Shown in pieces: positions 49,670 through 53,907 of a stretch of DNA of 64,000 nucleotides (position 1 is its first letter; each line of letters begins with the position of its first letter). The notes under the pieces are model-generated. The model saw only the letters and a list, made by a program, of their open reading frames with translations, ran no database searches and was not told the DNA's origin. Position numbers and translations under genes: made by a program. The DNA comes from Thermobifida halotolerans (GTDB lineage: Bacteria; Actinomycetota; Actinomycetes; Streptosporangiales; Streptosporangiaceae), in assembly GCF_003574835.2 (NCBI RefSeq), contig NZ_CP063196.1, positions 2,728,001 through 2,792,000 on the forward strand, in the 5' to 3' direction.

Positions 49670-49813
49670 TTCCTTCTGCCGGTCAGTCGGACAACTTCTG
49701 CTTCCAGACAAGCTTGTGAACGGCAAAAGTATGTGCGGGCCCAGCAGGAAGTGAGCGGTTCGCTACCGGAAGCCGCCGCCGTTCCGCTGTGGATCACCAC
49801 CACGACACAGAAC

Positions 49814-50429: not shown

Positions 50430-50825
50430 TTATCCCGGCCACGGCTCCGTTGTCCCGTCCGCGTCCCCGTCGTCGTGGACCGTTCGGCGCACCCCCTCCC
50501 CGCCGGGGTGGCAGTCCAGCGCGCGGCAGCCGATGACCGTCCCGTCGGCGGCGCGCACCAGGTCGGTGGGCACCAGCAGGTCGCGGCGCTCCGGGTGGGC
50601 CGCGGCGACCAGCGCGGAGACGATGTACCAGGTCCCCGGGCACACCTCGGGCAGCGCGGCGCGCCCGTAGTACTGGCGGACCAGGGGCACCCCGTCGACC
50701 AGACCGACGCACACCCTGGTCACCGGCACCCGTACCGGCCGCGCCGCGGCCGGATAGCGCCTGACCACCCGGGTGCCGTCGGCGAAGACCGTCACCTCGT
50801 GCGGGGTCAGGTTCAGCAGCGGCAT
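50430..50825 (-). CDS. Unknown protein, 131 aa, NLTPHEV family
   Basis: Opens MPLLNLTPHEVTVFADG, and contains PGTWYIVSALVAAAHPERRDLLVP (about 63-86). This pattern (N-terminal NLTPH, central IVS...RxDLxxP) is seen in small bacterial and phage proteins of unknown function. No signal peptide. ATG 50825 has GAGGAAGAG upstream. A GTCCGAGAG element lies upstream in the gene's own orientation (50889-50897). Divergent from the 197-aa gene. Confidence 0.75.
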   Translation of the reverse strand: MPLLNLTPHEVTVFADGTRVVRRYPAAARPVRVPVTRVCVGLVDGVPLVRQYYGRAALPEVCPGTWYIVSALVAAAHPERRDLLVPTDLVRAADGTVIGCRALDCHPGGEGVRRTVHDDGDADGTTEPWPG

Positions 50826-50888
50826 CCGGGCTCTTCCTCGCCATGGGCACGTGTCGGGAATCCGCGGAACGCGGAGGACACCCGGTGC

Positions 50889-50897
50889 CTCTCGGAC
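50889..50897 (-). promoter_or_regulatory. Shared GTCCGAGAG element, site A
   Basis: Read on the minus strand as GTCCGAGAG, 63 nt before the ATG at 50825. One of five same-orientation copies in this cluster. Confidence 0.5.
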
Positions 50898-50945
50898 GGC
50901 CCGGCAGAAGCCGGTCCGCAATGCCCGAGAACCCGCGGGCCGGAC

Positions 50946-50958
50946 TGTCCGAGAGACA
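50946..50958 (+). promoter_or_regulatory. Shared TGTCCGAGAG element, site B
   Basis: TGTCCGAGAGACA, 33 nt before the ATG at 50992. TGTC and GACA form a small dyad around CGAGA. Confidence 0.6.
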
Positions 50959-50991
50959 CGGGCATCACAGCCGCAACGCGAGGGAGAGCAG

Positions 50992-51585
50992 ATGCGCGCC
51001 AGGAACCGGGCGTCGGAACCCCGTATCCCGTTCGCTCAGCGACGGAGGCTGCGGCGTCAGGCCCGTGCCGACGCCCGTGTGGTGCTCCCCGCGCTCGTGG
51101 CACCGAACCGGTCCGTCTCCCTGGGAATCTCCACCGTCGACGAGCAGGTCTTCGCGGCCCACCAGGGCCTGGAGCGGGAGTACCTGCGTCTGCTCACCGT
51201 GCTGCGCCCCATCGACAGGGAGATCGAGGTCCTGGAGACCCGGATCGCGTTGGCCCGCATGGAGATCGACGCCCGGAACGAACGGACGGTGCTGCTGCCT
51301 GTCCCGCAGGAGGAGGACCCGGCCCGCATCCGGTTGCAACGGGAGGTCGTCCACACCGCCCGTCGGCTGCCCCCGCTGCGCAAGGAGCGCGTATCCCACA
51401 TCGCGGAGGCCCGGGCGGAGGGCAGGCGGATCATCGCCTACCACGAGCGCCTGATCTCTGTGTACCTGACCGAACTGTGCCGCCGGCACCCCGACGGCCA
51501 GGAGTTGAACCTGCTGCTGAGGGAGCGCCGCGGCAGCGCCCCGGGATTCGTCGCCGAACCCCCCTGGCTCACCGAGGAGCCGTGA
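50992..51585 (+). CDS. Coiled-coil protein, 197 aa, unknown
   Basis: A soluble, strongly charged protein with an extended heptad-like region from about 55 to 165 (HQGLEREYLRLLTVLRPIDREIEVLETRIALARMEI, then IRLQREVVHTARRLPPLRKERV). No family recognised. N-terminus basic (PFAQRRRLRRQARADARV). ATG 50992 follows AGGGAGAG. The next gene starts 63 nt downstream, so the two may form an operon, but the second has its own copy of the shared element. Likely a structural or partner protein of this cluster. Confidence 0.78.
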   Translation: MRARNRASEPRIPFAQRRRLRRQARADARVVLPALVAPNRSVSLGISTVDEQVFAAHQGLEREYLRLLTVLRPIDREIEVLETRIALARMEIDARNERTVLLPVPQEEDPARIRLQREVVHTARRLPPLRKERVSHIAEARAEGRRIIAYHERLISVYLTELCRRHPDGQELNLLLRERRGSAPGFVAEPPWLTEEP

Positions 51586-51602
51586 CCCGGTCCCGTGCCC
51601 GC

Positions 51603-51612
51603 TGTCCGAGAC
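51603..51612 (+). promoter_or_regulatory. Shared TGTCCGAGA element, site C
   Basis: TGTCCGAGAC, 36 nt before the ATG at 51649, in the 63-nt gap after the coiled-coil gene. Confidence 0.5.
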
Positions 51613-51648
51613 CTTTCCCCGACCGCATCGCCCGCCGAGGAGTCCACG

Positions 51649-52455
51649 ATGAACCACGCCTCGATCGAGGATCACCCCGCCCCTCCCGACCGTCCCGCCC
51701 GCCCAACCTCCGACCTCAGCGACGAGCAGCGCGAGAAGATCATCAACGCCCACCTCATCGAGGCCGGCGGCGTCATGGTCCCGCTGCTGGTCCTGCTGTT
51801 CTGCATGGCCCTCTACGTCGCGATCATCGCCGCGGACTGGGCGTTCAACGCCGACTCCTTCGCGCTGTACTTCACGCAACTGGTGGACTGGCAGGTCCAC
51901 GTGCTCTCCGGTGTGTTCGCCACCATCTACGCCGTCGCCGGATTCCTGGCCCTGGTGCAGCCGACCCGGCGGGGGCGGTGGCTCGCCGGAGCCGCCGCAC
52001 TGGTCCTGGGCGCCTCCTCGGTCGTCGGCGTCCTGCGCTACCTGGGGTCGGCCGGAGAGGTCCCGCTGGAGGAGAGGATCCTCGGGGAGTTCTTCCACGA
52101 GTGGATCCCCCTGGTGCTGCCGCCCCTGTTCGCCATGCTCCCCTTCGTCGTCGGCATCATGCTGCACCGGGGAGCCACGAACGCGTTCTTGACCCTGCGG
52201 CTCGCGTGGGTGCGGAGGAGGGCCCGCCGCGCCGTCGCCGAGTACGGCAGGCAGCAGGGTGAGTACGAGCGCCGCAAGAGGCACGTCGAGGACCTCGACG
52301 CGCTGCACGGCTCCCTGGAGTCGGAGACCGAGAAGGTCCGCCTGGCGGTGCGGGGACGGCTGGAGCGGGCCCGCTTCCACGCCCGCTATCTGATGGCGCA
52401 CCGGCCGGACGACCCGCCCTACCTCAGGGGGAACCTGGACGGCGCCCGGCGGTGA
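51649..52455 (+). CDS. Four-TM membrane protein with coiled-coil tail, 268 aa
   Basis: Hydrophobic segments at about 41-61, 84-104, 110-130 and 152-172. A polar N-terminus precedes them, and a charged coiled-coil C-terminus follows (RRRARRAVAEYGRQQGEYER, then KRHVEDLDALHGSLESETEKVRLAVRGRLERARF, to about 250). No catalytic motif or family recognised. ATG 51649 follows GAGGAG. The topology suggests a membrane anchor with a cytoplasmic coiled coil that could pair with the coiled-coil proteins encoded on either side. Confidence 0.78.
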   Translation: MNHASIEDHPAPPDRPARPTSDLSDEQREKIINAHLIEAGGVMVPLLVLLFCMALYVAIIAADWAFNADSFALYFTQLVDWQVHVLSGVFATIYAVAGFLALVQPTRRGRWLAGAAALVLGASSVVGVLRYLGSAGEVPLEERILGEFFHEWIPLVLPPLFAMLPFVVGIMLHRGATNAFLTLRLAWVRRRARRAVAEYGRQQGEYERRKRHVEDLDALHGSLESETEKVRLAVRGRLERARFHARYLMAHRPDDPPYLRGNLDGARR

Positions 52456-52531
52456 CCGGGCGGGAGGACGAGAGGAGCGGCGCGGGAATCCGTGCCGCTC
52501 CTCGTTTCGCGTCCGCCCGGCGGTCGCGCGG

Positions 52532-52939
52532 TCACTCCACCGCCGTCTCCTGACGCAGCTTCCGCCGGATGCGGTGGTCCAGCAGCGCGTGCCGCAGGTT
52601 GGCGAGGACCGCCGCCATCCGGTCCACCTCCTGCCCGGCGGCCTCCACCGCCACCCGCTGCTCCTCGACGCGGCCCCGCGCCCATCCGGCGATCTGGTCG
52701 ATCTGCTCGTCGCGCCTGCGCCGTTCGCCCTCCAGGACGGCCTCGGCGTCCGACTCGAAGGCGTTGACCCACGGGTCGAAGAAGTCGCCGTTGCCGAAGT
52801 CGAACACCTCGGGTTTGCGGTGGATCAGCTCCTCAAGCCGTCGGCGCAGCACGTCCTCGTCCAGGATCCGGTCGAGGTCGTAGGGCTGGTAGGTCCACGT
52901 GGGCTTCGGCCGCTCCGGGCCGCGTCTGAACCAGGGCAT
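52532..52939 (-). CDS. Coiled-coil protein, 135 aa, unknown
   Basis: Opens MPWFRRGPERPKPTWTYQPYD and contains FDFGNGDFFDPWVNAFESDAEAVL (about 45-68), then a charged helix to the end (QIDQIAGWARGRVEEQRVAVEAAGQEVDRMAAVLANL). Soluble, no signal peptide, no known family. ATG 52939 follows GGAGGGGAC. It is divergent from the lipoprotein gene, and a TGTCCGAGAG element precedes it in its own orientation. Confidence 0.75.
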   Translation of the reverse strand: MPWFRRGPERPKPTWTYQPYDLDRILDEDVLRRRLEELIHRKPEVFDFGNGDFFDPWVNAFESDAEAVLEGERRRRDEQIDQIAGWARGRVEEQRVAVEAAGQEVDRMAAVLANLRHALLDHRIRRKLRQETAVE

Positions 52940-52971
52940 GCGGTCCCCTCCTGTGCGTGGTCTCACCGGGT

Positions 52972-52982
52972 TCTCTCGGACA
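52972..52982 (-). promoter_or_regulatory. Shared TGTCCGAGAGA element, site D
   Basis: Minus-strand TGTCCGAGAGA, 32 nt before the ATG at 52939. With site E it forms an 11-bp inverted repeat spaced by 16 nt. Confidence 0.6.
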
Positions 52983-52997
52983 CCGGCTCTGTGGGGG

Positions 52998-53012
52998 TTG
53001 TCCGAGAGACAA
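52998..53012 (+). promoter_or_regulatory. Shared TTGTCCGAGAGACAA element, site E
   Basis: TTGTCCGAGAGACAA, 49 nt before the ATG at 53062; nearly palindromic (TTGTC/GACAA). Confidence 0.6.
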
Positions 53013-53061
53013 CCGCGGGACGGAGAACACGCCGCGAGGCCCCACAGAAAGTGAGACGGAC

Positions 53062-53907
53062 ATGCTTTCCCGCACCTCCAAGGCTTCTGCTCTGCTGCTG
53101 ACCGCGGCCGTGCTGGCGGTCACCGCATGCTCCGGCGACGGCACCGGGGGCGGAGAGTCCGCCGAGGACGACAGTGCCTTCCCCACCCGCGCGTGCGGCG
53201 CGGTGGTCGACGTGTCGGGCTCCGCCGACGGCGGCCGGGTCGTGGAGCGGGCTTCCGAGTGGATCGCGGAGTTCCTCGACCCCGCGTCCTCATCCGGCTC
53301 CCGCTGCGACAGGCTGGTCATCACCGTGGCGATCCACAACAGCGAGGCGCTCACCTGCGACCCGGTGGAGTTGGAGATCGCCGTCTCGGGGGCGAACAGC
53401 CGCGCGCAGAACGCCTCCTGGGAGCGGAACCGGCAGGAGACCGGCTTCGTGCCCGTCGAGGAGGGCGAGACGCCGTCGGGTCCCGGCGTCGACGCCTGGG
53501 AGGAGCTGCGTGCCTGTGGCGTGCGGATGATCGAGGAGCGCAGCAACCAGGACAACAAGCTGCACTCCGACGTCCTGGGCGCGCTGCGCAAGCTCGGCGA
53601 CCTGATGGACGACGGCCTCGACGGCGGCCGGATCGCGGTGGTCAGCGACGGCGAGCACAACGCCGAGACGCACTTCGGCGAACTGGACCTGGGCAGCGCC
53701 GAGTCGCGCGCGGAGGAGATCGAGCGGCTGCGCGAGGAGGGCCTGCTGCCCGACCTGTCCGGGGCCGAGGTGGTGTTCTACGGGCTGGGCAGCGGCCTGG
53801 AGGCGTCGTGGACCAGTTCGGAGGTGACCCGGCTGAAGGACTTCTGGGAGGAGGTCTCCCTGGCCGCGGGCGCGACGGCGGTCGACGACGCGTCCGCGGC
53901 GGAGTGA
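53062..53907 (+). CDS. Putative lipoprotein with von Willebrand A-like domain
   Basis: A 281-residue exported lipoprotein. Signal peptide with lipobox VTAC; the lipid-anchored Cys would be Cys23. After a Gly/Ser/Glu linker, residues 45-54 read GAVVDVSGSADGG, with an Asp-x-Ser-Gly-Ser metal-ion-dependent adhesion (MIDAS) type motif at 50-54. A second acidic strand is RIAVVSDGEHN near 193. Conserved cysteines at about 45, 83, 99 and 151 could form disulfides. The vWA assignment is moderate; partner and ligand are unknown. It is the outward-facing member of the five-gene cluster. Confidence 0.75.
   Translation: MLSRTSKASALLLTAAVLAVTACSGDGTGGGESAEDDSAFPTRACGAVVDVSGSADGGRVVERASEWIAEFLDPASSSGSRCDRLVITVAIHNSEALTCDPVELEIAVSGANSRAQNASWERNRQETGFVPVEEGETPSGPGVDAWEELRACGVRMIEERSNQDNKLHSDVLGALRKLGDLMDDGLDGGRIAVVSDGEHNAETHFGELDLGSAESRAEEIERLREEGLLPDLSGAEVVFYGLGSGLEASWTSSEVTRLKDFWEEVSLAAGATAVDDASAAE

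Follow-up and report, generated by a model that had tools for sequence, protein, structure and literature searches.

Introduction

The Crn4 ring nucleases, for which Unk_01 is the earlier name, are reported to carry conserved residues T13, H15 and R112 (Crn4a numbering), of which H15 and R112 are needed for cleavage (PMC12830947). Here we consider a nine-nucleotide element, GTCCGAGAG (hereafter the tag), which stands before a crn4 gene (g1) and, with one variant copy, before four neighbouring genes (g2-g5) in a window of 64,000 nucleotides (nt) of Thermobifida halotolerans DNA, positions 2728001-2792000 of a 5.5 Mb genome. Like the described family members, the g1 protein has a threonine, a histidine and an arginine at the reported positions. 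Relatives of g1 sit in a type III operon, whereas the T. halotolerans crn4 gene, known here from its sequence, is found beside g2-g5, some 1.9 Mb away from the III-H locus of the same genome.

Several other described systems resemble parts of what surrounds the tag. CARF-HTH factors such as Csa3 control archaeal CRISPR genes (PMC8844856, PMC8699464, PMC10013973); one factor coordinating several CRISPR-linked genes is also the logic proposed here, although Csa3 is archaeal and its DNA element is different. Ter systems, in which TerD and TerC occur with vWA proteins, have been linked to phage resistance (PMC7824862), and genes resembling g5 lie beside TerD/TerC-like genes elsewhere, whereas a family search detected neither TerD nor TerC among g1-g5. 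HSP70, GrpE, DnaJ or TPR proteins have been described in actinobacterial conflict systems (PMC7159879), and an operon that carries the tag has the same kinds of parts; those systems are defined by a GTPase (GAP1-N2), whereas the tagged operon is compared by its other parts. In mycobacteria, PafBC offers a precedent for an asymmetric, specific promoter motif that is read with the housekeeping sigma factor and RNA polymerase (PMC11804915).

The conservation and position of the tag suggest, on balance, that in Thermobifida, Nocardiopsis and Streptomonospora it serves as a directional recognition site close to the promoters of an antiviral regulon whose genes are dispersed and which centres on type III CRISPR, and that it probably switches scattered virus-defence genes on or off together. 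To judge by titles and abstract openings, the switching-on of type III CRISPR and ring nucleases in these actinobacteria is apparently undescribed: at that depth, literature searches on type III CRISPR regulons and ring-nuclease promoters returned no such element, and among the matches listed for a text search with GTCCGAGAG all were unrelated by title. A tag linking crn4, III-H cas6, another cas10, a kinase-chaperone operon and a lipoprotein module would provide a handle for finding the regulator, would allow new defence genes to be found by promoter instead of by homology, and would give a predicted role to four otherwise unannotated genes.

Results

A shared element precedes five genes

The shared element before the five genes is real (Table 1). 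A reading made from the letters of the window alone (the sequence-only reading) had placed one copy before each gene, and all five were found at the places and in the orientation it gave: the exact 9-mer before four genes and GTCCGAGAC before g3, each reading in the direction of its gene. Of the gaps to the start codon reported there, 63 nt (g1) and 36 nt (g3) agree with ours; the values 33, 32 and 49 had been counted from longer words, and become 36, 33 and 53 nt when counted from the 9-mer. Two shorter copies proposed at 49687 and 57965 fell away, as neither is an exact 9-mer and neither has a called same-strand start within 120 nt.

Table 1. Genes of the T. halotolerans cluster and the copies of the tag before them, in window coordinates (aa, amino acids; bp, base pairs)
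Feature	Position	Strand	Description	Size or gap to start codon
g1	50430..50825	-	Crn4 ring nuclease (assigned from sequence)	131 aa
g2	50992..51585	+	uncharacterised, coiled-coil-like by eye	197 aa
g3	51649..52455	+	uncharacterised membrane-like protein	268 aa
g4	52532..52939	-	uncharacterised, coiled-coil-like by eye	135 aa
g5	53062..53907	+	likely lipoprotein, vWA-like DxSxS motif (read from sequence)	281 aa
g1 tag	50889..50897	-	GTCCGAGAG; context CGTCCGAGAG-N6-GGTG	63 nt
g2 tag	50947..50955	+	GTCCGAGAG; context TGTCCGAGAG-N5-GGCA	36 nt
g3 tag	51604..51612	+	GTCCGAGAC; context TGTCCGAGAC, one mismatch	36 nt
g4 tag	52973..52981	-	GTCCGAGAG; context TGTCCGAGAG-N5-GGTG	33 nt
g5 tag	53000..53008	+	GTCCGAGAG; context TTGTCCGAGAGACAA; sole complete 5-bp palindrome	53 nt

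The tag is conserved before type III CRISPR genes

A family search found crn4 in 55 of 341 genomes. We examined 30 crn4 loci plus 33 named loci; the two sets overlap and come largely from the same species, and related species are not independent observations. All 20 crn4 loci of one genus, which the named records show to be Nocardiopsis, have an exact sense copy that starts 52-101 nt upstream, within GTGTCCGAGAGAcTgCGGTGAgg, and apart from single columns no other conserved block was present in the 20 aligned leaders. Both crn4-bearing Thermobifida have a copy at the same distance (-72 and -73), the g1 tag lying at the same place in T. cellulosilytica. The other eight of the 30 loci have no copy near crn4 at up to one mismatch; in the seven of these with a callable cas6, crn4 comes after cas6 and, where the locus extends far enough, before a Can1-like gene. 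Among the 33 named loci, an exact tag lies within 160 nt before crn4 in 27, two of them named Streptomonospora and Glycomyces, and before the cas6 of a III-H cas6-crn4 operon in five (four exact, and one with a single mismatch at L316, whose cas6 start we placed by eye); one distant locus (Arachnia) has the tag at none of these places. The remaining genes of the 33 loci, 141 in number, served as a control: over the same 160 nt, a sense copy precedes 10 of them, every one in a III-H locus (cas6 in four cases, the small divergent gene in three and cas10h in three), and 12 of the 141 have an antisense copy. The sequence-only reading had made its proposal depend on conservation before orthologous genes; this is what these loci display, and the dnaJ and FHA-side sites described below are likewise kept in T. 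cellulosilytica.

The III-H-like locus of T. halotolerans, at about 901-913 kb, encodes Cas6, a Can1-like protein, Cas10h (E-value 1.5e-184), Cas7, Cas5 and Csx25, and bears two copies that face outwards, towards cas6 and towards a divergent small gene. Across III-H loci the cas6-facing copy is exact in 7/7, the copy facing the small gene is exact in 6/7 with one mismatch in the seventh, and the spacing between the two varies. Within this stretch (L048, 893001-913000) the Can1-like protein is a CARF-nuclease-CARF effector, and the conserved small gene divergent from cas6 is without a Pfam match. The III-H stretches L048, L104 and L105 showed no CRISPR array.

A second type of cas10 gene, III-B-like, was found at 36 places, of which 30 had loci that were examined. 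That of T. cellulosilytica has an exact tag at -72, and a sense tag occurs in seven of nine Nocardiopsis loci (three exact, four with one mismatch). In at least four Nocardiopsis loci the copy overlaps 3' coding sequence that by eye is cas6-like, in two reading frames that give LSER in L275 and L276 and VRE in L271 and L279, so it is the DNA that is conserved. An origin of the tag in CRISPR repeats was considered and rejected: repeats were found in 8/24 stretches scanned (L266-L268, L271, L274, L279-L281), and inspection by eye showed the word in none of them. The III-B-like cas10 genes of T. halotolerans at 4579917 and 2246380 (L265, L267) have no sense tag at up to one mismatch, and CRISPR-like repeats lie near them (L266-L268). 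Taken over all loci, the element occurs in sense before type III genes at separate loci of several genera (crn4, III-H cas6 and cas10); it is conserved before crn4, III-H cas6 and dnaJ, and is present before the second type of cas10 in most Nocardiopsis loci examined.

Both tag-bearing Thermobifida, T. halotolerans and T. cellulosilytica, keep two copies in a DnaJ-TPR/DnaK/GrpE/kinase/FHA-like operon, one ahead of dnaJ and one where the kinase gene ends (FHA was named by eye, and DnaJ falls slightly under the Pfam cut-off). Further copies precede kinase genes in T. cellulosilytica (L282/L147, +59; L148, +211; L141, +44, a doubtful case in which G precedes the word). In L148 a kinase domain and then a DruE-like sequence share one open frame that starts 211 nt after TGTCCGAGAG and is cut by the locus end; the C-terminal part matches DruE profiles, and the kinase matches to PADLOC are generic.

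Placement, not abundance, is unusual

The window shows no excess of words within one mismatch of the tag (24 observed versus 37.2 expected), and the 50 exact copies in the genome are fewer than those of the reversed control (98), while the 10-mer TGTCCGAGAG, with 14 copies, exceeds its control (5). It is the placement of the copies that sets them apart. GTCCGAGA occurs in the upstream regions of all five cluster genes; among 20,000 random, motif-blind sets of five genes, a common 8-mer was found in 5/5 genes in no set and in 4/5 genes in 10 sets, the regions used (-120 to -21, n=377) coming partly from stretches fetched for holding a copy. Eleven of the 50 exact genome sites are intergenic with a same-strand start no more than 120 nt downstream, where the background, taken from 0.3 Mb in stretches that we placed at round coordinates, is 3.5% (p=1e-6); without the four cluster sites the figure is 7/46 (p=0.001). 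Both the gene starts, which come from our own simple gene caller, and the 120 nt limit, chosen after the cluster was seen, should be borne in mind when these values are read. Sites facing away from a start within the same limit number 6/50, or 3/46 without the cluster sites, and ten scrambled 9-mers gave one sense upstream site among 93. The claim of the sequence-only reading that the arrangement is unlikely by chance is therefore upheld for placement (0/20,000 sets; 11/50 against 3.5%), and a genome-wide search for the exact word, of the kind that it proposed, yielded an upstream bias together with a 9-mer count that is not above control.

Context also separates the sites. GGTG follows after N5/6 at 6/11 upstream sites versus 1/39 others (p=1.8e-4), a comparison that is partly post hoc since it uses the same sites. 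A stricter pattern, GTCCGAGAG-N3..7-GRTGA, has 25 places in eight Nocardiopsis genomes versus 5 for the control, and eight of these are crn4, one per genome.

Shape of the element and candidate readers

The consensus is YGTCCGAGAG, often with GGYR 5-6 nt later. At the 21 listed sites, which were chosen by gene and not at random, a pyrimidine precedes the word in 21/21 and GGYR follows after N5/6 in 11/21. The conserved block is about 23 bp, and its distance to the start codon is about 30-140 nt across loci. The near-palindrome noted by the sequence-only reading holds at single sites and not in general: 5-bp arms are complete at 1/21 sites (g5), four of five pairs form at two others, and a palindromic operator was accordingly rejected.

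Known promoter classes fit imperfectly. Promoters for extracytoplasmic function (ECF)-type sigma factors have two conserved boxes about 16-18 nt apart, whereas one block alone is conserved in the 20 Nocardiopsis crn4 leaders; the ECF type was thus set aside, although an unusual sigma factor may be the reader. The PafBC consensus, TGTCRGTG-N8-TANNNT, shares TGTCNGNG with the tag, and a promoter of this type was rejected as the TANNNT part is absent, the tag consensus being GTGAGG-like there. A phylogenetic profile over 30 of 52 WYL-type places in seven genomes, those with loci, gave no group that occurs in both tag-bearing Thermobifida yet is absent from their genus-mates G002 and G003, and in that comparison no PafBC-family regulator was linked to the tag. 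A neighbour of the III-H genes (PADLOC Unk_06 region) was dropped as a candidate regulator, its Nocardiopsis homologue being unmatched in T. cellulosilytica, which keeps the tag.

Genes of the cluster

The sequence-only reading had called the cluster unknown, a description that stands for g2-g5, which have no family match, and no longer applies to g1. In phmmer searches g1 matches PDB chains named Crn4a, Crn4b and Crn4 H15A, with E-values of 6.6e-14, 7.1e-13 and 1.1e-12 among them, aligning with Crn4a and Crn4b over its full length or C-terminal half, and it matches PADLOC Unk_01 at 7.9e-35. Residues T7, H9 and R91 are invariant in eight relatives; R91 was paired with R112/R103 by our own reading of the alignment. 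By its sequence g1 is a Crn4 ring nuclease, the predicted off-switch of type III CRISPR signalling.

No significant match for g2-g5 was found in Pfam, PHROG, NCBIfam or PADLOC. Among 60 genomes g3 was found solely in T. halotolerans, and a g5-like protein is present in 53/338 family genomes, T. halotolerans included. The g5 model is modest, with a predicted local distance difference test (pLDDT) score of 70; its structural matches by Foldseek are weak, the best being Sec24 chains and a vWA domain at E-values of 0.004-0.02. No PDB match reached E<=0.001, and Pfam gave none. In five of nine wider loci from other genera (L381, L384, L386, L387, L388), a g5-like gene lies between coiled-coil-like and membrane-protein genes, and genes read by eye as TerD, TerC and TerD come next. 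The g5-like lipoprotein with its coiled-coil-like and membrane partners may thus belong to actinobacterial Ter systems as a component not described before.

Discussion

The suggestion of the sequence-only reading that the word is a shared promoter element or operator is supported by its sense orientation, upstream bias and conservation before orthologues. In the mechanism that we favour, every gene or operon carries a tag aimed at itself; a dedicated factor, which could be an alternative sigma factor or an activator that adapts sigma, would read the tag as the main promoter box, and would thereby co-express the CRISPR machinery, the ring nuclease as its off-switch and other modules that resemble defence systems. 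Within the window, the tag would serve Crn4 and the four-gene module g2-g5 (a Ter-linked lipoprotein module), from which we predict that g2-g5 work alongside Crn4 in one antiviral or infection-stress programme.

A classical operator, bound by a repressor or activator near ordinary promoters, would leave the regulon as it is and change only what the tag does, since it would then not be a promoter box. We regard this as rather unlikely, although it is the likeliest of the rivals. In its favour, a block of about 23 bp fits a transcription-factor site, the distance to the start varies (31-140 nt), and the Csa3 precedent is of this kind. Against it, the tag always faces its gene, divergent genes each own a copy, the 20 Nocardiopsis leaders contain no separate conserved -10 or -35, and the tag is not palindromic. 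A promoter box with a dedicated factor fits better than a freely oriented operator because the element is asymmetric and gene-facing, is the sole conserved block of the crn4 leaders, and is present as a separate copy for each of two divergent genes. A word that is transcribed and acts in the leader RNA, for instance as a protein- or ligand-binding site, would also account for the constant orientation and for the position, 30-140 nt ahead of the start codon. This we consider improbable, given that an Rfam search of 12 loci returned nothing up to an E-value of 1, the hairpin of the g5 type is complete at 1/21 sites, and the remaining leader is unconserved and, in L208, as short as 52 nt. It is more doubtful still, to the point of being very improbable, that the word is a local operator of the window cluster alone and resembles the CRISPR-linked sites by accident. 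The bare 9-mer is indeed not over-represented in the genome and crn4 is the sole CRISPR-linked gene of the cluster, but the tag is found at 27/33 named crn4 loci plus five operon loci and at 7/7 cas6 promoters, while 131/141 other genes in these loci lack it.

A number of observations nevertheless tell against the promoter-proximal regulon element that we prefer. No binding factor was found. Copies upstream of cas10h were dropped as evidence, as they lie inside the Can1-like coding sequence and in one frame. Among the III-B-like cas10 loci, 22/30 have no copy at up to one mismatch, including those of G002, G003 and L249 (T. halotolerans); loci without the tag include the three Thermobifida loci other than that of T. 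cellulosilytica and 17 of other genera (two with little or no upstream sequence), and the second cas10 of both T. halotolerans and T. cellulosilytica has no sense copy within one mismatch. GGYR is absent at 10/21 sites, those of g3 and g5 among them. The upstream sites of T. halotolerans at genome positions 4256225, 4330849 and 5213417 precede genes without a known defence role. Of the 17 non-crn4 places in the Nocardiopsis pattern scan, seven are inside called genes and four are intergenic within 120 nt before a same-strand start, and no known CRISPR gene was found at those four. G002 is without crn4, yet 4/32 of its words are sense sites within 120 nt before starts, compared with 6/37 in T. 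cellulosilytica and 0/16 in G003 (counts made after removal of repeated contexts and of sites without a locus). A pyrimidine precedes the word at one of the four upstream sites of G002 and at four of the six of T. cellulosilytica, and genomes with and without crn4 are told apart by conservation, not by counting alone. Finally, the copy before g2 may originally have been crn4's own: the g1 and g2 tags are divergent and 58 nt apart both in the window and in T. cellulosilytica, and the latter is without g2-g5. The crn4 gene of T. cellulosilytica (L102/L284) is flanked directly by the neighbours of the window cluster, the pgl side and a lyase, and g2-g5 are missing, which reflects either an insertion in T. 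halotolerans or a loss in T. cellulosilytica.

A wider version of the regulon can be put forward tentatively. One factor, possibly sensing a CRISPR second messenger or a phage cue, might run a genome-wide, infection-responsive regulon that embraces type III CRISPR, the ring nuclease, and kinase/chaperone conflict modules and Ter-like membrane modules at many separate loci, in which case the tag could find new defence genes, g2-g5 being examples. Our estimate of this extension, which we consider less likely than not, was lowered slightly because the Nocardiopsis pattern scan and the G002 counts weigh against it.

Further occurrences of the tag

Three other occurrences were recorded. A gene that encodes Eco57I methylase and DUF7008 domains (L050 6434; genome 3748433), which we take to be PglX/BREX-like, has a copy 306 nt upstream. 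L140 (T. cellulosilytica) and L154 (G002) share a CCAGTCCGAGAGGGCAGGATGGACACAT context 32 nt upstream of an uncharacterised gene; this is probably unrelated to the tag because the word is preceded by A. Two Nocardiopsis (L210 and L223) have GTGTCCGAGAGGAGTGGTGACCGCCAG in common, with a gene that by eye looks STAS-like 233 nt downstream.

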